Shown: in pieces, positions 36,937 through 55,951 of the stretch
Numbering within the stretch: position 1 is the stretch's first letter
Layout of the letters: every line of letters begins with the position of its first letter
From: Candidatus Eisenbacteria bacterium
Lineage (GTDB): Bacteria > Eisenbacteria > RBG-16-71-46
DNA: 64,000 bases
Direction: 5' to 3'
NCBI GenBank assembly: GCA_020847735.1
Contig: JADLBL010000003.1
Coordinates: forward strand, 62,001-126,000
Program-made: the position numbers and the translations under genes
Notes under the pieces: generated by a model
What the model was told of the DNA's origin: nothing
The model's database searches: none
The model's input: the letters and a program-made list of their open reading frames with translations, nothing else

Positions 36937-37419
36937 TCAAGCGGTCGCGCGGCGTGCCTCGTAGGCCCGGTGCTGCAGGGCTTCGGCCACCCTGACCGCG
37001 GCGACGCGCTCCTCGCAGGCGAGGTCCGCGATCGTGCGGGCGACGCGCAGCGCACGATGCACCGCGCGCGCCGACATGCCGCCGCGGTCCACGGCATCGG
37101 CCACGAGGCGGCGGCCCGCCGCGTCGAGCGCGACGTGCACGCGCAGGGTCGCGCTCGACAAGGCCGCATTGAGAGCGCCGCGGGACCTCTGCCGTTCGCG
37201 CGCGGCCAGCACGCGCTCGCGCACCACGGCGCTCGCCTCGCCCGAACTCTCGCGCAGGAGTTCCTCCGAGGTGAGCGCCGGCACCTCGACCTGCAGATCG
37301 AGTCGATCGAGGATCGGCCCGCTCACGCGTTTCGCGTAGACCGCGAGATCGGAGGGACCGCACCGGCAACCCCGCTTGGGATGTCCCAGCCAGCCGCAGA
37401 AACACCGTTGCGTTGCCTT
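36937..37419 (-). pseudogene. comM: 3' end of comM (Mg-chelatase-like ATPase), copy A
   Basis: About 160 residues of the C-terminal part of the ComM/YifB family: a Cys-rich CGWLGHPKRGCRC loop, SGPILDRLDL, and the Mg_chelatase_C helices (SSATLRVHVALD, MSARAVHRALRVARTIADL, EALQHRAYE). Upstream of the ATQ codons (37410-37419) the frame meets a TAA and homology stops, so the first two thirds of the gene, including the Walker motifs, are missing. It adjoins the core chromosome, so it is probably the resident gene's own 3' end. Confidence 0.85.
37371..37419. repeat. att-like repeat, copy A (in comM)
   Basis: The plus strand carries CCCGCTTGGGATGTCCCAGCCA... then GTTGCGTTGCC (37407-37417). The same two blocks with the same 33-base offset recur at 43558-43606. 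Homology to comM ends right after GTTGCGTTGCC in both copies, so the recombination core is probably at or beside this 11-mer. Confidence 0.6.
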
Positions 37420-37439
37420 TTACCAGCCTTCGGCTATCG

Positions 37440-38132
37440 GTGCCCCGACCGCCCGCCCTGCCAAGGGGTTACTCGCCCGAGGTCAACACGCTCGGCGACC
37501 ACCCTCGGCGTCGGCGGCTGAATCTGGGGCAAACACAACGAACCACCGCCCGGGGTCTTGGAGTCCGGGAAGCGACTGTCGGGATCTGGGAGCGAGGGCT
37601 CGCCAGGCCACTTCCGCGGCACTACAGCGGGATTGTCCAGTTCATCGGGTTCAACCCAGAGGCGGTCGGCGATGGCCTGCTCGCTCGCCTTCTCGCCGCC
37701 CGGCGGCGGCTCGGACTGACTGCGGCCCAGTTCGCCGCCCGAACCGGGTTCGGCGAAGGTTCGATCTGTCGGTGGACGAGCGGGAAGCGGACACCCAGCC
37801 CTTGGATGGTCGGGAGGATTCGCGCCGTGCTCGCCGGGGTGGAAGGGCGAGACGCTGAGGGCGCCGCACCTCCCTCCTTCCTCGATCTGTTTCGCTGGCG
37901 CAGGAAGCTGCCGATCGGGGCCGAGCCGAGGACCTTCGGCGAGCGGTTCCGTGCCCACCAACTCGAACGCGGGCTCAGCCAGGAAGCGGCTGGAAGGTGT
38001 CTTGGAGTCGGGTGGGCGACGGTTGCCCGCTGGGAGCGAGGCGAGTGTCGACCGGGACAGCGGTGCGAACCTGCGCTCGTGCGCTTCCTCCAGCGTGAGG
38101 AACGCGAGGGCGGCCAGGACGCCTCGAAGTGA
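37440..38132 (+). CDS. Protein with three tandem XRE-type helix-turn-helix domains
   Basis: 230 residues from GTG 37440, only ~20 bases inside the att-like repeat. Three HTH units: ~22-75 (LGDHPRRRRLNLGQTQ, VREATVGIWERG, FIGFNPE), ~83-130 (LGLTAAQFAARTGFGEGSICRW) and ~165-220 (LSQEAAGRCLGVGWATVARWERG). One or two such units are usual; three in one chain is uncommon. Probably a DNA-binding regulator carried by the inserted DNA. No SD is obvious; starts further upstream would run into the att site. Confidence 0.72.
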   Translation: MPRPPALPRGYSPEVNTLGDHPRRRRLNLGQTQRTTARGLGVREATVGIWERGLARPLPRHYSGIVQFIGFNPEAVGDGLLARLLAARRRLGLTAAQFAARTGFGEGSICRWTSGKRTPSPWMVGRIRAVLAGVEGRDAEGAAPPSFLDLFRWRRKLPIGAEPRTFGERFRAHQLERGLSQEAAGRCLGVGWATVARWERGECRPGQRCEPALVRFLQREEREGGQDASK

Positions 38133-43117: not shown

Positions 43118-43606
43118 TCACCCCGCTCCTGTCTCATGTCGAGCCTCGTACGCGCGGTACTGCAGCGCCTCCGCCAATCGCAACGGGCGCACACTCACCT
43201 CGGCGGCGAGATCCGCGATTGTCCGGGCCACTCGCATGGCGCGATGCACGGCTCGTGCGCTCATGCCGCCACGATCCACCGCATCCGCGACGAGTTGGCG
43301 CCCAGTCGTGTCGAGCGCGCAGTATTCGCGCAGCGTCGCATTCGGCAGCATCGCGTTGAGGTATCCACGCGCGAACTGGCACGCACGCGCCGCGAGCACG
43401 CGCTCGCGTACGACGGCACTCGTCTCTCCGAGAGATGCCCGCAGCAGCTCGTCGGATGTCAGCGCGGGTACCTCAATCTGAATATCAATACGGTCTAATA
43501 TAGGACCACTGACGCGCGTCGAGTGACGCGCCATCTCATGGGGAGTGCACCTGCACCCCCGCTTGGGATGTCCCAGCCACCCGCACGCGCAAGGTTGCGT
43601 TGCCAA
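43118..43606 (-). pseudogene. comM: 3' end of comM, copy B (diverged)
   Basis: About 160 residues, same extent as copy A and breaking at the same codons (ATQPCACGWLGHPKRGC...). Over the last ~128 residues it is about 75% identical to copy A by hand alignment, so it is not a recent duplicate but comes from another lineage. Upstream of the ATQ codons the DNA becomes the serine recombinase gene. The frame is intact to its stop, so it could complete a comM gene if joined to a 5' part. Confidence 0.82.
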
Positions 43607-45096
43607 TTGCCGGCTACTTCGGCGGGACCGGGAAAGTAGGCGAGGTCGATCTCGACCTCGCTCCTTCCGACCCGGACGGCATCGACCACGGCCTCGATGA
43701 TAGCCCTTTTCTCACTGGCACTTAGAGCCGGCCAGCGCTCGTAGAGATCCTTCGCTCCTGAGAGGATCTCGTCCCTTGCCAAGAACTGGACCTTGGCGAA
43801 ATCCACCTCGCCCTGGAGCCGGGGGAGTTCCTCGTCGAGCTGCTTGAGGCGCTCCTCGAGTGGCTTGTAGGTCCGGCCGAAGCCGTCGGGGGAGATCTGG
43901 TCGTCGATGTAGAGCCGGTAGACCTTGGCCATCTCGGTCCGGACCTTCTCGGCCTCGGCCTCCAAAACGCCGAGGTGCTCCTCCTTGGCCCGGATCTCCT
44001 CGTCGGCTGCCCCGACGTAGGCGGCCACGTCCTCAGGCGAGAGGAAGAAGCTGCGGAGCTGCTCGTGGAAGACCGCCTCGAGGTCCTCGGGGGTGATCTT
44101 GTTCCGGCAGGCCCGGCAGATGTACTTGACCGTCCGGTAGCTGGCGTCGGCGTACATCCGCTGGCCGCAGTGGCAGGCGACTACCCCGGCGAAGAGGTGG
44201 GCGGGCTTCTTGGCTGGCGGCTTGGCTGTGACCCGGCGGTCGTCGAGGATGGCGTTGCACTGACTCCAGAGGCCCTCTGGGACGATCGGCTCCACGGGAG
44301 AGAGGACCCAGTCGCTCTCCGGCTTGAGGACCCAGTGCTTCTTCTCGCCAAGGGACTTGGTGTAGTTGGCACGGCGCAGGCCCTTGGCCGTCGAATCCCG
44401 GATCAGGCGCTCGACGGTCGTATCCGACCACATGCCACCCGTGCGCGTACGGTACCCGCGTTCGTTGAGCAACCGGGCCACGGCCTTCTTGCGCTTGTGC
44501 TCGAGGAAGAGCTCGTAGAGGAGCTTCCGGACCGGCGCCTCGGCCGGATCGGGAATGAGCTGCTTGTCCTTCCACTGGTAGCCGTAGGGGGCGGCCCCGC
44601 CGGTGGACTTGCCAAGCTTGGCCCGGATAGGCACCGAGGCCGCGACGCGCTCAGCGATCTCCTCCCGCTCCCACTGCGCCATGGCCGCGATCATGGTGTA
44701 GAAGAGCCGGCCGGCCGGGGTGGTGGTGTCGATGGACTCCTGCAGGGAGATCAAGTCCGCGTCATGGTCGCGGAAGTAGTCGGCGAAGTCGAGCAGCTCG
44801 CGGGTGTTCCGAGCCAGCCGGGCAAGCTTGGAGAAGATGAGCCCCGTGATGTGGCCGGTGGCCACGTGGCCCATCATCTTCTTCGCCTCGGAGTGCTCGC
44901 GGACGCTCTTCCCGCTTACGCCCTCGAGGTGGTAGACCTCACGAACCTTCCAGCCCTTGCTCTCCGCGTAGCCGCGGGCGCGTTTCTCGTGGTGCTCGGG
45001 GCTCTCGCCTCGCGCCTGGTCCTCGGTCGAGACACGGATCCAGATGCCGACGGGCTTGGACCGTTCCACTCCTTCAACGACTCGCAGCTTCCTCAT
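43495..45096 (-). CDS. Large serine recombinase (integrase), reading through the att site
   Basis: 533 residues. Resolvase catalytic domain with nucleophile S23 in RVSTEDQ, then LARLARNTRELLDFADYF and a long helix. A 'recombinase' domain follows (APYGYQW, LLNERGYRTRTGGMWS), a zinc ribbon (CHCGQRM...CRAC), and a coiled coil (~365-445). This is the normal layout of site-specific phage/ICE integrases. The frame does not stop at the element edge: after about residue 497 (PGPAEVAGNWQRNLA) it passes through the shared att block and reads ~35 residues out of frame through comM copy B. Its C-terminus is therefore host-supplied and its native end unclear. Confidence 0.88.
   Translation of the reverse strand: MRKLRVVEGVERSKPVGIWIRVSTEDQARGESPEHHEKRARGYAESKGWKVREVYHLEGVSGKSVREHSEAKKMMGHVATGHITGLIFSKLARLARNTRELLDFADYFRDHDADLISLQESIDTTTPAGRLFYTMIAAMAQWEREEIAERVAASVPIRAKLGKSTGGAAPYGYQWKDKQLIPDPAEAPVRKLLYELFLEHKRKKAVARLLNERGYRTRTGGMWSDTTVERLIRDSTAKGLRRANYTKSLGEKKHWVLKPESDWVLSPVEPIVPEGLWSQCNAILDDRRVTAKPPAKKPAHLFAGVVACHCGQRMYADASYRTVKYICRACRNKITPEDLEAVFHEQLRSFFLSPEDVAAYVGAADEEIRAKEEHLGVLEAEAEKVRTEMAKVYRLYIDDQISPDGFGRTYKPLEERLKQLDEELPRLQGEVDFAKVQFLARDEILSGAKDLYERWPALSASEKRAIIEAVVDAVRVGRSEVEIDLAYFPGPAEVAGNWQRNLARAGGWDIPSGGAGALPMRWRVTRRASVVLY
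43558..43606. repeat. att-like repeat, copy B (element/comM junction)
   Basis: CCCGCTTGGGATGTCCCAGCCA from 43558 and GTTGCGTTGCC at 43594-43604 repeat copy A at 37371-37417 with identical spacing. It lies inside the 3' end of the serine recombinase, the usual position of an attachment site beside its integrase gene. Confidence 0.6.
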
Positions 45097-45145: not shown

Positions 45146-45580
45146 TCACAGGAGGAACCGCTGCGCCAAGAAGATCATGCCGAGCAGCGTCACGTACACC
45201 GGCCAGACCGAGAACGAGAACAACGCGCCGACCAGGCCGATGCCGCCGGCCGGCTGGACGGCGTAGAGGTCGGCGGCCCTGAGCTGCCCGTGGTGCAGTT
45301 GGTCGATGAAGGTGTTGTACGACCGCCGGAACCCGCGTTCGAGCCCGAGGTAATACGCGTCGAGCACGAAGAAGAGGGCCGTCGGGATTGCCGCGAGCCA
45401 GACGTAGTTCGGCCTGCCCTTGTCGGCAACGACGACGAGCACCGCCGATACGAGTCCGATGCACCACGCCTTGCACGAGGTGCTGTTGGACGCCATTCGT
45501 TGAATGACCGACTGCAGGATGCTGAGGTGAGCCTGAACCGCAGGCGATGCGTCCGAGTAGGTCGCCGATTCGGGAGTCAT
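45146..45580 (-). CDS. Small three-helix membrane protein paired with a TIR protein
   Basis: 144 residues from ATG 45580, which begins one base after the TIR gene's stop; an upstream frame would overlap the TIR gene. A soluble helix (VQAHLSILQSVIQRMASNS) is followed by membrane segments at ~37-53, ~58-78 (FFVLDAYYLGLERGFRRSY, a striking Asp/Tyr/Arg-rich exit) and ~112-140. No enzyme motif. The tight pairing with a TIR NADase-type protein suggests a membrane effector or sensor in a defence module. I do not know a named family for it. Confidence 0.75.
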   Translation of the reverse strand: MTPESATYSDASPAVQAHLSILQSVIQRMASNSTSCKAWCIGLVSAVLVVVADKGRPNYVWLAAIPTALFFVLDAYYLGLERGFRRSYNTFIDQLHHGQLRAADLYAVQPAGGIGLVGALFSFSVWPVYVTLLGMIFLAQRFLL

Positions 45581-45581
45581 G

Positions 45582-46166
45582 TCAGTCCACCCACGAAGCG
45601 AAGTTGATGTATCCGTCATGTGCGATCCAGTCATACACGGGGAAGAAGTTGCTCAAGTTGAACCCCTTGCCCCAGTACTTCTGTGCGACACCGCCGGTCT
45701 GGAACGAGGGACCATTGCCGATCTCCCCGTATTCGATCCACTTGTCGGCCTTCTTCTCCCACAGGGTAGCGGTCAGTCCGGTGTCTGAGTAGGTCACGCC
45801 GACATACTCAAGTGGATTTGGACCGAGCGGCTTCACTTCGCGGTTCTTGTCTCGTATAGAATTGACGTGAACCGCGAGCAAGCCCTTTCCCAAGTAGAAG
45901 CTCAGCAGGAGTTCGTAGCGGACCCATGGACGCAGGTAGGTGTCGGAGCCAACGAGCACACACGTGACGCTTGTACCGTCGATCGCTCCGTTGATGAGAC
46001 GCTTGAGCGCTGTCGTTCCTTGCTTCCTTGCCGACTCCCAGATTGACGCATCGAAGAACCCTGCAGCTTCGCGGTCCGGTTTCGCGCGCCAGGATTGGCG
46101 CACGACGTTCGCGCGGAAGTCCGCCACATCTTGGTAGTCGAAGCTGAAGAAGACCCTTTTGGCCAT
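45582..46166 (-). CDS. TIR-like protein, ThsB (PF08937/DUF1863) type
   Basis: 194 residues starting MAKRVFFSFDYQDV, the standard opening of the MTH538/ThsB TIR-like family. ThsB proteins sense phage and use NAD+ to make a cyclic ADP-ribose-type signal. A conserved Glu, E85 in RPWVRYELLLSF, occupies the expected catalytic position. The frame is open to ATG 46187, directly after the translocase stop, but Met 46166 gives the family N-terminus. The classical partner ThsA (SIR2-SLOG or TM-macro) is absent; the next gene is a 3-TM protein. Operon with the translocase upstream. Confidence 0.85.
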   Translation of the reverse strand: MAKRVFFSFDYQDVADFRANVVRQSWRAKPDREAAGFFDASIWESARKQGTTALKRLINGAIDGTSVTCVLVGSDTYLRPWVRYELLLSFYLGKGLLAVHVNSIRDKNREVKPLGPNPLEYVGVTYSDTGLTATLWEKKADKWIEYGEIGNGPSFQTGGVAQKYWGKGFNLSNFFPVYDWIAHDGYINFASWVD

Positions 46167-46187
46167 CTGCCCTCGCCTCACGAGCAT

Positions 46188-49100
46188 TCAGGACTTGCTC
46201 TTCCGCATTCGCTTCACTGCTTGCGCAACCACTGCCGAGACCACGCCGTGTCGCTCGGTCTTCGTCGCGCTCGTTGTCGGCTTGATACGGACCTTCACCT
46301 TGTAACCGCGCACCGTCTGCTCGCTCACGTGGGTCTCGGCGTCGGCGGCATCGAGCACGTCGAACAGGTTCTCGGGCGTGCAGTAGGCCACCTTGCCCAG
46401 CTGCTCCTCGGTCAGGATCGCGGCCGATTCGCGCTTCATGGTTTTCAGCGTCTTCTGATCCGCCGCGACATGCAGCACTCGGCCGAAGCCGGCGGCGAGG
46501 CATTTCTGAAGATTCTCCACTTCGTGGTCGGAGCTGGTGGTGACGCCGATCTCGACCGCTACCCCCTTCTCACCCTTCCGCAGCGCCACGTCGACGTTGC
46601 CGAGGCCGTCGAGGACGCTCTCCTCGACCGTCGAGCGCCAGTCGTGAGTGTCGGCCCACCGACAGATGAGGGACTGCAGGTACTTGTGCTGCTTGCCGCC
46701 GCGTCCAGGGCTCGACGCCGGCGTCGGGATCTCGACGGCAGAAGGTGGCAGAAGTGGTGCCGGGACCGCGGGGGATTCGGCCCCGGCACGTTCCCGTCGC
46801 GGGGGCGACGGTGGCGTCGGTGGTTCGACGCGCTTCGATTCTAGCTCCTGGGCAGCGCCCGAGCGAGCCAGCAGCGCCTCGATCTCCGCCCGCGGCCGGC
46901 CGTAGCGCTCACGTGTCCGGCCCACGATGTGGGCCCGGGTTTCCGTGCTGGCCGCCTCATCAACGAGCGGCAGCATGGTGGTGGCGAGGTTGAAGTCGAA
47001 CTCGGAGCGCTCGATCCGGGCGATGGCCTGCCCAGTGGAGAGGGACTGTAAGTCGCGCGCATCGAAGTGCTGAAACCCGTCGGCCAACGTCCGGGCGTCC
47101 TGATCCCCGACCCGGAAGCAGATCCGAGCGTAGGGATTGGACAGCACTGAGTTCAGGACGTCCACGCTGCGGCTTTGAATCTGCCGCAGGTCCTGGTGCG
47201 CCAGCACCAACCCGAGCCGGTACTTCCGCGCGCCAGAGAGGATCGACTCCATCGACGGAGTGACGAAGTTGTGGAACTCATCGACGTAGAGGTAGAACGG
47301 CCGGCGCTCGGCTGCGGCCTGTTCCTGCCGGCTCATGGCGAGCTGTTGCAGCTTGGAGACGATGAGTGTGCCAAGGAGGTAGGCGTTTTCTTCGCCGATC
47401 GCGCCTTGAGAGAGCCGCGCCAGCAGTACCTGCCCGCCGTCCATGATCCGCCGCAAGTCCAGCCGGCTGTCCTGCTGGGCCACCATGTAGCGGATGGTCT
47501 TGGGCCGCAGGAAGATGTCGAGGCGCGTGAGGAGCGGTGCCTGCGGCTTGCCCGAGAGGAGCGGGAACTCCTTCTGCCAGTAGTAGACGACCTCCGAATC
47601 GTTGACCGTCTTGAGGAACTCTCGGCGGAAGTCAGCCTCGACGAGAAACCGGCGCAGGTCCACCAGCGTCCCGCCGCGGCCACTCTCGAGGAAGGCGAGG
47701 ATCGCGTTCCCGAGGACCGACGTCATTTGGTCGCCCCAGCTCGTCGAGAGCCGGCGGAAGACTGACACGAGATCCGATGCCAGGAGCGTTCGCTCGAGCT
47801 CGGAGTGCGCCTGCAGGATGTTGAAACCGACCGGGTACTCACCATCGGAAGGATCGAGCAGCACGACGTCGTCTCGCCTACTCGCAGGCAGCCGGCGCAC
47901 AACCTCGTCTATGAGGTCACCGTGCGGATCGAGGACCGCCAGGCCTTCCCCGCGATCGAGGCTCTGGAGGATCAAGGAGAGCAAGAGCGTGGACTTGCCC
48001 GTGCCCGAGGCCCCGACGACGTACAGGTGCCGCGAGCGTTGATCGTCGCTCAAGGCCACCGGCGTGCTCTTGCCCGCGTGCATGTTCGTGCCGAGCACGT
48101 AGTCGTGATTGGTCGCGACGGCCGGGGCCATGCGCGTCTTGCCGGACTCGCGGACGAGCTTCTCCAGCCGCACCGTGGCCGAAGGCGGGTGAACGAGCGA
48201 GACAAGCTCGGCGCAGCTAAGCAGCATTCCGCTGCGGCGGGTCAGGCGGCGGAGCAGATCCTGTTCGTGGAACTCGTCGGGGTAGTCGTCGTTGGCGAGC
48301 GGGACCAGCCGATTTGCCGGCGGGTTAGTGAGCGCGTTCAAGGCCCAGCCCACCGAGCGGGCAAGAAGCATCGCGCGCTGAGGGTCGGGAGATCGCACAC
48401 CAACGCGAACGACGCAGGCGTAGAGCGGTCGAGAGATCTTCTCGCGGGCGAGCGCCGTCACCTCGGGTGCATCGAGGAAGAACGGGCTGCCGCCTTCGTC
48501 GAGGACGGCCCGCAGGATGCTCTCCGCCCACGGCTCGCGCGTCGGCTGGAAGAGCACCTGCAGTACCGCGGTCTCGCCCGGTTCGAGTTCGGACATCGCT
48601 GCTCCGATGCCCGTCAGAGGATCGACGGTGAAGCGCCGCAGCGTCCGGAGCGGCAGCATGAACTCCTCGGAGAGCCCGAACTCCACGACGACGGAGTGGC
48701 CGCCTTGCTGCTGCCAGGCTGTTTCGAGGGAGCCGTCGGCGGTGGTCAAGACGCTCGCGGGAAAGAACCCCCTCACCTGCTGCTGGACGAGTGAGCGGTC
48801 CGCTTCAGCGCAGACGAGCTGAACCGCGATCGCCTCGGCCGTGCCAATGACTTCGAATGTGACCGAGCGCCGCAGGTGCGGCAATGCGAGCAGGAACTGT
48901 TCGACTTCCTCGGGCGAGACGTCGTGGTCCGGCGGCAGCGACCAGCGCAGTTCCGTCAGCGGCTCGCTGTCATCGATCGCCCCGGGCTCGGAGTCCTCCT
49001 CGTCAAGGACGGCATGCTCCGACTCATCCGCGGGCGATGGCCCCGCGCCAAGGATTCGGTCGGTCAGCCGGCTCCAGAGCGTCGAGACGCGGCCATCGTC

Positions 49101-49289
49101 AAGGTCCGAAGGCGACCGCGACACGTGGTGGAAGCGGAACGGCGCGAAGGGCGGTTCCAGTTCCACAGGCGAGTCCCATACCCGCCAACCACGGCCGCGC
49201 CGCTCCCAGGTGTAGAACTGCTCGGTCAGTCGCTCAATCGACGAGGCCAGCACGCAGACCTCACGAGGGATTGACGGCGGAAGCGCCAC
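46188..49289 (-). CDS. VirD4/HerA-type DNA translocase ATPase with C-terminal restriction-nuclease-like domain
   Basis: 1033 residues. N-terminal ~400 residues are a variable domain with beta strands and no obvious membrane helix. The ATPase has Walker A GASGTGKS (426-433), VLDPHGDLIDEVVRRLP, a TraG-like middle (SWGDQMTSVLGNAILAF), Walker B FYLYVDEF (665-672) and ARKYRLGLVLAHQ. This is the conjugative coupling-protein-like branch of HerA/FtsK ATPases. After a Pro-rich linker (820-865), residues ~868-960 look like a PD-(D/E)xK fold (E890, GNVDVAL with D900, VAVEIGVTT with E913). It probably pumps and cuts element DNA. No relaxase or T4SS pilus genes are in the window. Overlaps the membrane partner upstream by 29 bases. 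Confidence 0.82.
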   Translation of the reverse strand: MALPPSIPREVCVLASSIERLTEQFYTWERRGRGWRVWDSPVELEPPFAPFRFHHVSRSPSDLDDGRVSTLWSRLTDRILGAGPSPADESEHAVLDEEDSEPGAIDDSEPLTELRWSLPPDHDVSPEEVEQFLLALPHLRRSVTFEVIGTAEAIAVQLVCAEADRSLVQQQVRGFFPASVLTTADGSLETAWQQQGGHSVVVEFGLSEEFMLPLRTLRRFTVDPLTGIGAAMSELEPGETAVLQVLFQPTREPWAESILRAVLDEGGSPFFLDAPEVTALAREKISRPLYACVVRVGVRSPDPQRAMLLARSVGWALNALTNPPANRLVPLANDDYPDEFHEQDLLRRLTRRSGMLLSCAELVSLVHPPSATVRLEKLVRESGKTRMAPAVATNHDYVLGTNMHAGKSTPVALSDDQRSRHLYVVGASGTGKSTLLLSLILQSLDRGEGLAVLDPHGDLIDEVVRRLPASRRDDVVLLDPSDGEYPVGFNILQAHSELERTLLASDLVSVFRRLSTSWGDQMTSVLGNAILAFLESGRGGTLVDLRRFLVEADFRREFLKTVNDSEVVYYWQKEFPLLSGKPQAPLLTRLDIFLRPKTIRYMVAQQDSRLDLRRIMDGGQVLLARLSQGAIGEENAYLLGTLIVSKLQQLAMSRQEQAAAERRPFYLYVDEFHNFVTPSMESILSGARKYRLGLVLAHQDLRQIQSRSVDVLNSVLSNPYARICFRVGDQDARTLADGFQHFDARDLQSLSTGQAIARIERSEFDFNLATTMLPLVDEAASTETRAHIVGRTRERYGRPRAEIEALLARSGAAQELESKRVEPPTPPSPPRRERAGAESPAVPAPLLPPSAVEIPTPASSPGRGGKQHKYLQSLICRWADTHDWRSTVEESVLDGLGNVDVALRKGEKGVAVEIGVTTSSDHEVENLQKCLAAGFGRVLHVAADQKTLKTMKRESAAILTEEQLGKVAYCTPENLFDVLDAADAETHVSEQTVRGYKVKVRIKPTTSATKTERHGVVSAVVAQAVKRMRKSKS

Positions 49290-50139
49290 CCTGCGTCATC
49301 GCCAGCAGCGTCTGGCCATCCGGCGTGAGCGTCGGATCGACTGCCGCCGCTTCAGGCGGCGACGGCAGTTCGGATCGCGCGGGATGAGACGCACCCGCCG
49401 CTCGGCGCGCTTCACCGCCGTTGAGCAGGTCGCGGAAGAGCGGCTTGCGCTCCTCGGCGCTCAACGCTCGCAGCCCTTTGGTTGTCAGCAGCCCGTCGAT
49501 CGCCTCGAGCGTGGCCGAGTGCACCGCAGACTGGAACATGAGCATGGTGTCGATGCGGTAGTACGTTGCAGGCGCGAACATGCGCTCGTAGAACCAGCCG
49601 ATGAGCGGCACGGTCAGGATGGCCGCCTCGGGCCCAAGGTTGCCCGCTCGGGCCGCCAGCGCGACAAGCCAGAGGACAATCAGGAACGAGAGCGGGATCA
49701 GGACGAAGGGATTGATGACGAGCCGGAGCAATCCGAGAATGAAGCTCATCCCCAGCCCGTACGAGCCACGCCAGACGAAGTCCGTCGCCTGCTGGAGGAG
49801 CCAGCCGAGGAAGAGCGTCAGCAAGGCGAAGGAGACGAGGTATAGGAAGACGAAGCGGGCCTTCTTCTCGGTTACCCACGAGGAGAAGAAGAAGCCGGTG
49901 CCGAACGGCGCCGCGCACATGTCGAAGGAGTGGCGGTCGCCCTCGACCCGCAGATACTCGCGGTCCGGCGAGAGCAGGCCGCCCTCGCTCCATTTCACCC
50001 GGCTGGTCTTCAGGCCCGGGACGTGCCGACGATCCAAAGCCAGTTCGACCGAGGTATAGAAGTCCTTGGGTGAGGTCTGGAAGTTCTCGATCAGCTTGTG
50101 CCAGTGGGTGACGACGTTCTCCAACGGAGTCTGCGGCAT
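49261..50139 (-). CDS. Multi-pass membrane protein, partner of the translocase
   Basis: 292 residues. An N-terminal soluble part (~1-90) precedes hydrophobic helices at ~93-116, ~128-170 (two) and ~180-195. The C-terminus is cytoplasmic and Ala/Pro-rich. No family recognised. Its 3' end overlaps the translocase start by 29 bases, so they are co-translated. It likely anchors the ATPase, which has no membrane helix of its own, in the way VirB10/TrwE-like proteins contact coupling ATPases. Confidence 0.75.
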   Translation of the reverse strand: MPQTPLENVVTHWHKLIENFQTSPKDFYTSVELALDRRHVPGLKTSRVKWSEGGLLSPDREYLRVEGDRHSFDMCAAPFGTGFFFSSWVTEKKARFVFLYLVSFALLTLFLGWLLQQATDFVWRGSYGLGMSFILGLLRLVINPFVLIPLSFLIVLWLVALAARAGNLGPEAAILTVPLIGWFYERMFAPATYYRIDTMLMFQSAVHSATLEAIDGLLTTKGLRALSAEERKPLFRDLLNGGEARRAAGASHPARSELPSPPEAAAVDPTLTPDGQTLLAMTQGGASAVNPS

Positions 50140-55222: not shown

Positions 55223-55951
55223 CTAGTTGAGGGAGAGTCCCTCTCGAAACGCCTTGGTGAGCCGCAGAGTTCCGTCCATCTGCTGCCGGGGCTGCCGCTG
55301 GCCGATGACGGCCGTGAAGGCATTGAAGAGCGCCCAGGCGGAGTGCGGCACGAACTCCGGGTTGTCGAGGTCGTCGAAGTGCTCGATGACCTTGGGCAGC
55401 TGCGAGGCCGGCAGGGCGCCGCTCCGGATCGCCAGGATCATCAGGTGGTGCGCGAGCGCCATCTTGAGCGTCAGCCGCTTCATCTGCTCGATCTCTGCCG
55501 CCAGGCGCCCCTTCATCGCGGACACGCTCATCAGCATGTCGTAGACGAGGCTGGGCAGGTCCCGGAAGACGTGGGCGGTGTGCTTGCGAGAGACCTTCGT
55601 CTCGCCGTGGAAGGCCAGGTTGTCGCAGACGAACACCCGGCTGCCGGCCACGAGCTGAACGCTCAGGGAGCGGTCGTACGAACTGCGCAGGCCGATGGCC
55701 AGGCCCCAGTCGGCGGTGTGGCCATTGCGACAGGTGAGGACGCCGAACATCTGGTTGCCATCGCGAGCGAGCGCGTAGCGCTCGTCCTGAACGGCGAGGC
55801 CGAAGCGCGGCAGGTGCAGGTGGATCTCCTCGACGAGCCGCCCGTAGGAGACCGGGACGTAGGAGTCGGTGGACTCGGGGACTTCGACGGAGGCGAGGTC
55901 GGCGAGGCTGGCGGACCAGCCACCGCGATGCAACATGAGGGTGGAGCGCAT
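55223..55951 (-). CDS. DUF932 family protein
   Basis: 242 residues. Matches the DUF932 (phage/plasmid LGT-type) family: YVPVSYGRLVEEIHLHLPRFG, DGNQMFGVLTCRNG, GLRSSYDRSLSVQLVAGSRVFVCDNLAF. Members are found on plasmids, ICEs and phages beside RadC-like and recombination genes; function is unknown. AAGGAAG lies upstream of the ATG. Last gene of the leftward element block, followed by a terminator hairpin. Confidence 0.85.
   Translation of the reverse strand: MRSTLMLHRGGWSASLADLASVEVPESTDSYVPVSYGRLVEEIHLHLPRFGLAVQDERYALARDGNQMFGVLTCRNGHTADWGLAIGLRSSYDRSLSVQLVAGSRVFVCDNLAFHGETKVSRKHTAHVFRDLPSLVYDMLMSVSAMKGRLAAEIEQMKRLTLKMALAHHLMILAIRSGALPASQLPKVIEHFDDLDNPEFVPHSAWALFNAFTAVIGQRQPRQQMDGTLRLTKAFREGLSLN

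Follow-up and report, generated by a model that had tools for sequence, protein, structure and literature searches.

In a stretch of 64,000 nucleotides from Candidatus Eisenbacteria bacterium (contig JADLBL010000003.1, positions 62,001 to 126,000 of the forward strand; hereafter the window) two neighbouring genes code for an ATPase, in which a motor of the type IV coupling proteins is followed by a domain of predicted nuclease fold, and for a small putative membrane partner. In conjugation three components are normally required, namely a relaxase, an ATPase for coupling and a secretion channel of considerable size. We suggest that the pair processes and pumps the DNA of an element which inserts into the gene comM with the help of a serine recombinase, and we put the probability of this reading at a little under one half (roughly 0.47). 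The architecture described below is well supported; the function, i.e., cutting, ring assembly, docking and the exit of DNA from the cell, we infer. The genes and domains concerned are the following:

46188..49289, minus strand: ATPase, 1033 residues, with VirB4-like N-terminus, VirD4/TrwB-type motor and PD-(D/E)XK-type C-terminus
48093..49289, minus strand: N-terminal domain (residues 1–399), fold nearest to TrwK/VirB4 of the R388 type IV secretion system (T4SS), sequence kin among the N-termini of T4SS coupling proteins (Embleya, B. subtilis)
46800..48092, minus strand: motor core (residues 400–830), Walker A 426–434, Walker B with DE 670–671, matched by PF10412, PF12696 and PF02534
46335..46697, minus strand: PD-(D/E)XK-type domain (residues 865–985), invariant E889, D900, E913, T918, E923, N926 and K929, ExK position without lysine
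49261..50139, minus strand: partner protein, 292 residues, with two hydrophobic segments and soluble ends that are conserved, encoded 5′ of the ATPase

Both reading frames lie where an earlier note on this DNA had placed them. Judged from its profile matches, the ATPase has the TrwB/VirD4-type nucleotide-binding domain of type IV coupling proteins: PF10412 (TrwB_AAD_bind, 3.4e-11), PF12696 (TraG-D_C, 2e-5), PF02534 (T4SS-DNA_transf) and DUF87 all score above their own cut-offs, and the residues of both Walker motifs are invariant across the relatives described below. These matches bear out the VirD4 motifs named in the note but not the HerA type that it had named alongside, as the NCBIfam HerA models score the protein with at most 15.6 bits versus 43–44 bits for the VirD4-type models. 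The FtsK_SpoIIIE model reaches 17.3 bits and stays under its cut-off of 24, so that the protein does not classify as a translocase of the FtsK/SpoIIIE type. In agreement with the note, no hydrophobic segment or membrane helix is predicted along the 1033 residues. The overlap of 29 bases with the partner gene holds if translation starts at the GTG at 49289, but there is no overlap if the in-frame GTG at 49253 is used.

The N-terminal domain was modeled with AlphaFold2 (mean predicted local distance difference test score, pLDDT, of 80). A Foldseek search with this model retrieved TrwK/VirB4 of the R388 T4SS with a probability of 0.99 but a template modeling score (TM-score) of just 0.34–0.38; flavin oxidases were also among the matches, at lower TM-scores, and HerA was absent from the 50 best. 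At the sequence level the domain aligns with the N-terminus of a T4SS coupling protein from Embleya (hhalign 92%) and more weakly with that of a DUF87 protein of a B. subtilis plasmid (29%). No sequence match was obtained with the VirB4-like ATPase of that B. subtilis plasmid, which has a TcpE-type system, nor in the PDB. As a sequence match to the VirB4-like ATPase is missing, the likeness to VirB4 is one of fold only. By descent both the motor and the N-terminus are of the type found in MOBC-associated coupling proteins, and not of the TdtA type.

For the C-terminal residues 860–1033 AlphaFold2 predicts an alpha-beta-beta-beta-alpha-beta arrangement whose core has a pLDDT above 90. The top fold matches of this model in the PDB are mostly PD-(D/E)XK nucleases, among them Bax1 (E 5e-4), EcoT38I, R2 endonuclease, Can2/Card1, BspD6I, and Cas4, and no relevant match was found by sequence in Pfam and the PDB. 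Among 14 relatives, which have a median pairwise identity of 42% in this domain (lowest 32%), 14 of the 117 columns of the core are invariant, including the residues listed above. According to the model the C-terminal region has a PD-(D/E)XK nuclease fold and may act as a nuclease. The earlier note had regarded the lack of such a fold as the finding that would speak against it; the predicted structure, on the contrary, matches these nucleases. From the catalytic pattern that it proposed, D900 and E913 stand as invariant residues, but the conserved acid further upstream is E889 and not E890. In three relatives (L018, L019, L034) an HTH_17 domain (9e-14) follows the nuclease-type domain, which suggests DNA recognition.

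The nearest described relatives of the ATPase are, as far as alignments can tell, coupling proteins whose relaxases belong to the MOBC family (PF13814). MobB of the CloDF13 type aligns with the motor core with an hhalign probability of 94%, and the corresponding MobC matches PF13814 at 1e-21. To the same family belong the replication-relaxation genes that are found, amid T4SS genes, 3′ of the related coupling proteins of Embleya (WP_331738717) and B. subtilis (WP_121549396). Since these neighbours are PF13814 proteins and the fold of MOBC relaxases is that of PD-(D/E)XK nucleases (PMC12857230), the relatives of the motor work beside a PD-(D/E)XK relaxase. As in MobB/MobC of CloDF13, a motor of the TrwB/TraG-D type would work with a PD-(D/E)XK-type nuclease; these are, however, two proteins in CloDF13 and one here, CloDF13 needs a foreign T4SS, and a membrane partner gene is present only here. 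Klebsiella homologs stand in for the CloDF13 mob genes in these comparisons, as the genes are broken by frame errors in the record NC_002119. Apparent frame errors in both mobB and mobC of this record (L093) also explain that they are not annotated as such. The Embleya and B. subtilis proteins share with the ATPase the motor and a related N-terminal domain. They differ in having the separate replication-relaxation gene and VirB4/PrgI or TcpE-type genes nearby, and the C-terminal nuclease-type domain had no match at these two coupling proteins.

Two further systems are instructive. TraJ/TraI of pIP501 are likewise a soluble coupling protein and a separate membrane partner (PMC7431656). Unlike the pair, they belong to a full T4SS. 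We know of no nuclease domain in them. The second is TdtA of the Thermus element ICETh1, to which the earlier note had likened the ATPase: it also pumps the DNA of an integrative element that has neither a T4SS nor a relaxase, and it needs a nuclease, but it is a HerA/FtsK-type protein with NurA as a separate nuclease (PMC5365140). NurA and a restriction enzyme are encoded in the operon of TdtA, whereas the ATPase of the window has the partner gene and the TIR/2TM genes described below as neighbours and no NurA/restriction-enzyme operon. The comparison holds as an analogy at most and fails at the level of the family, where the VirD4/TrwB-type ATPase is set apart from TdtA by the HerA models and by the description of TdtA. 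In a literature search, made largely without subscription journals, no report of a fusion between a coupling ATPase and a nuclease was found.

The multi-pass membrane protein that the note had seen beside the ATPase is supported by the two hydrophobic segments of the window protein. In each of the 13 relatives whose upstream DNA is available, a homologue of this partner lies 5′ of the ATPase. It is directly adjacent in twelve loci, a HEPN gene being inserted between both genes in L021/G040, the gap ranges from −14 to +15 bases, and the soluble ends are conserved. The partner may dock the ATPase at the membrane.

The relatives come from ten loci of a genome scan, two of whole-genome searches and three of viral contigs. 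Full-length relatives of the ATPase are about 44–60% identical to it, and their hosts are Eisenbacteria, Acidobacteria, Bacteroidetes and one record of the Verrucomicrobia type. The elements that carry them usually also encode a related serine recombinase, and the majority of these elements are inserted at one site of comM/yifB; in L034 the pair occurs with a tyrosine integrase instead. When the search was started from the recombinase, it was found in ten genomes, in three of which the contig ends too close to judge, and the ATPase is present on six of the seven contigs that are long enough. On the seventh (G364) a membrane bPH protein is encoded beside a VirD4-like ATPase of 440 residues. The recombinase had no relative in viral contigs. 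In these comparisons the pair recurs as part of the backbone of integrative elements, as would suit a role in transfer. That the pair is kept with the recombinase while the cargo is variable points to a function for the element itself and not to exchangeable defence cargo, in a sample that is small for separating backbone from cargo. A second VirD4-like ATPase, of about 400 residues and lacking additional domains, is found repeatedly in these elements and in other mobile ones (L017 6062–7252, L020 762–2033, L025 8415–9770, L085 9383–10705, and L054 7938–9125); both of those that were tested match the defence model mad8.

Owing to the lineage of the ATPase, its pairing with the partner gene and its linkage to the integrase, the best fit is a coupling protein, fused to a nuclease, by which the DNA of the element is processed and moved. 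The element would insert into comM by its serine recombinase and would later be excised. A coupling protein and a MOBC-type relaxase, two proteins in CloDF13, would be merged into one polypeptide. At the inner membrane the partner would serve as the docking site of the ATPase ring; cutting or nicking of the excised DNA would fall to the nuclease domain, and the ATPase would drive this DNA through or to the membrane. A more far-reaching version, in which a docking domain of VirB4 likeness, a motor like that of VirD4 and a nuclease resembling a relaxase in one polypeptide export, with a single membrane partner and free of any T4SS, the DNA of serine-recombinase elements in several phyla, appears to us rather doubtful.

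Several observations weigh against a transfer module. The usual lysine of the ExK motif is replaced, mostly by a small residue. The partner of L035 misses the hydrophobic middle and thus has no hydrophobic segment at all, and that of L022 has one only at the N-terminus. A route across a second membrane is not encoded. In G060, G061, and G067 a MOBC relaxase is encoded no more than a few kb away from the ATPase, and therefore the fused nuclease domain may not replace a relaxase. Furthermore, three profile comparisons of the C-terminal domain with MOBC by hhalign all gave probabilities below 5%, none significant, although one put the catalytic acids in register, and the PF13814 profile matches neither the ATPase nor this domain. 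A homology of the domain to MOBC relaxases was set aside because significant profile similarity is lacking.

The elements are also rich in defence genes, which leads to the main rival explanation. Adjacent to the pair are:

45582..46187, minus strand: TIR-like gene of the ThsB family (PF08937 1e-15, PDC-M50B 3e-52), defence cargo
45146..45634, minus strand: 2TM effector-like gene (PDC-M50A 1e-28), defence cargo

Together these genes (45146–46187) match the PADLOC defence candidate PDC-M50, which the earlier note does not mention. The pair itself could be a device for defence or competition, with the ATPase loading on foreign DNA near the membrane and translocating, and the nuclease destroying this DNA. 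HerA-nuclease defence systems do exist. The element carries, besides the TIR/2TM candidate, a PbeA-like helicase, other elements carry type I restriction–modification, HEPN and CD-NTase-like genes (the last assigned by eye), and the PADLOC model mad8 of the MADS system matches the core of the ATPase with an E-value of 2e-20. However, mad8 shares with the ATPase only the VirD4-like motor core: it is a model of 314 positions without the N- and C-terminal domains and part of a multigene defence system, and MADS partner genes were not found among the element genes scanned. Defence models match the ATPase at the core alone (mad8 and HerA) and never over its length, its lineage is that of conjugative coupling proteins, and the pair stays with the recombinase although each element has a defence cargo of its own. 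We consider a defence role less likely than one in transfer. The TIR and 2TM genes were also considered as part of the module and rejected, as they recur in G002 beside another recombinase without the ATPase between and are absent in most relatives. This occurrence of the PDC-M50 pair in a genome of the same genus (L087) is again next to a related recombinase.

To return to transfer, the module has to be seen in the context of the whole element, whose recognisable parts in the window are, in addition:

43495..45096, minus strand: large serine recombinase (PF00239, PF07508), probable integrase, with relatives at comM junctions
43118..43606, minus strand: C-terminal fragment of comM/yifB, edge of the element
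55223..55951, minus strand: DUF932 gene, common to several of the elements

The contig ends 963 bases past the window, and the 44 bases at this end are repeated without a mismatch at the start of contig C20. A recombinase frame continues across this join, and the other end of the element is marked by the N-terminal part of comM at C20 9251–10267. The element so reconstructed from an exact overlap of two contigs has a probable length of about 31 kb. Besides the pair it contains the recombinase, the TIR/2TM cargo, a glycosyltransferase-like gene, an FG-GAP protein, the DUF932 gene, RadC, PDDEXK_1, an M48 peptidase, RuvC, a second recombinase, the PbeA-like helicase and a GHKL ATPase. In G059 a whole element of about 43 kb is found on one contig, in the order C-terminal part of comM, helix-turn-helix gene, type I restriction–modification, RuvC, Toprim protein, small VirD4, partner, ATPase, DUF932, recombinase and N-terminal part of comM. 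The break in comM falls at about residue 343–365 of the family model in eight genomes or records. All or most of GTTG(C/T)GTTGC is present at the junctions on the side of the N-terminal part, and its reverse complement on the side of the C-terminal part.

The note had reported no relaxase, pilus or VirB gene and had asked whether a T4SS and a relaxase would appear beyond the window. None of these genes is found in the whole reconstructed element, including the remainder on C20, and T4SS genes beyond the window are ruled out by this remainder together with a genome-wide search for VirB4. Coupling proteins are expected to be encoded with a relaxase and a T4SS; here neither is found in the element, and VirB4 is absent from the genome. 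It is conceivable, if rather improbable, that the pair acts inside the donor only, in processing of the excised circle, replication or segregation, and that the element spreads by transformation or phage. The absence of channel genes and the presence of RuvC, RadC, the PDDEXK_1 nuclease and the Toprim protein in the elements would agree with such a role, but a protein that works in the cytosol alone would not usually have a partner in the membrane and an N-terminus like that of VirB4.

The element could also be mobilizable and borrow a T4SS when one is present, as CloDF13 does: this plasmid has genes for a coupling protein and a MOBC relaxase and relies on a T4SS encoded elsewhere (PMC7431656). 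VirB4 is indeed encoded off the element, on other contigs, in G059, G060, and G062. For the G059 element the Pfam survey covers the 25 top families, so that a weak T4SS match in it is possible; searches for VirB4 and PF13814 place such genes of this genome on contig C4 only. However, VirB4 is absent from five element-bearing genomes (G000, G020, G024, G040, and G398), apart from a few weak matches far below the cut-off, one of which in G024 is the ATPase itself, and G000, the host of the window, is 99.6% complete. We give little credit to mobilization by a borrowed T4SS. The relaxase family PF03432 is missing in seven of the eight genomes, among them G000, and PF13814 in G020, G024, G040, G062, G063, and G064. 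In G000 PF13814 is found on C8, on C21 and at 35 kb of C3, always outside the element and next to a VirD4-like gene; the gene on C8 is accompanied by a second ATPase core (41%). These VirD4-like ATPases, in a genome devoid of VirB4, lie at C8:93721–95588 (L009), C21:207137–209350, and C3:33724–35932.

Some further observations concern the insertion site and the ends of the elements. On the window contig comM is split and two different C-terminal pieces are present (36966–37416 and 43118–43606), which are 78% identical in DNA sequence, and G040 has five or six comM fragments; such multiple fragments suggest repeated insertion at comM. The element of the window is oriented opposite to those of G059, G062, G024, and G040. 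A protein with repeated helix-turn-helix domains is encoded at one terminus by comM (37413–38132 in the window, about 8806–9243 in L010 and at the start of the G059 element). At the other end of the element (L010 719–7170), the PbeA-like helicase and the GHKL ATPase are perhaps a Pbe-like defence system.

If the suggested transfer role is true, widespread elements that retain only a nuclease-bearing coupling ATPase and a single partner would illustrate the extent to which the conjugation machine can shrink; alternatively, parts of this machine would have been turned to defence. The pair may also serve as a marker for mobile elements that screens based on relaxases and T4SS would score as non-mobile.

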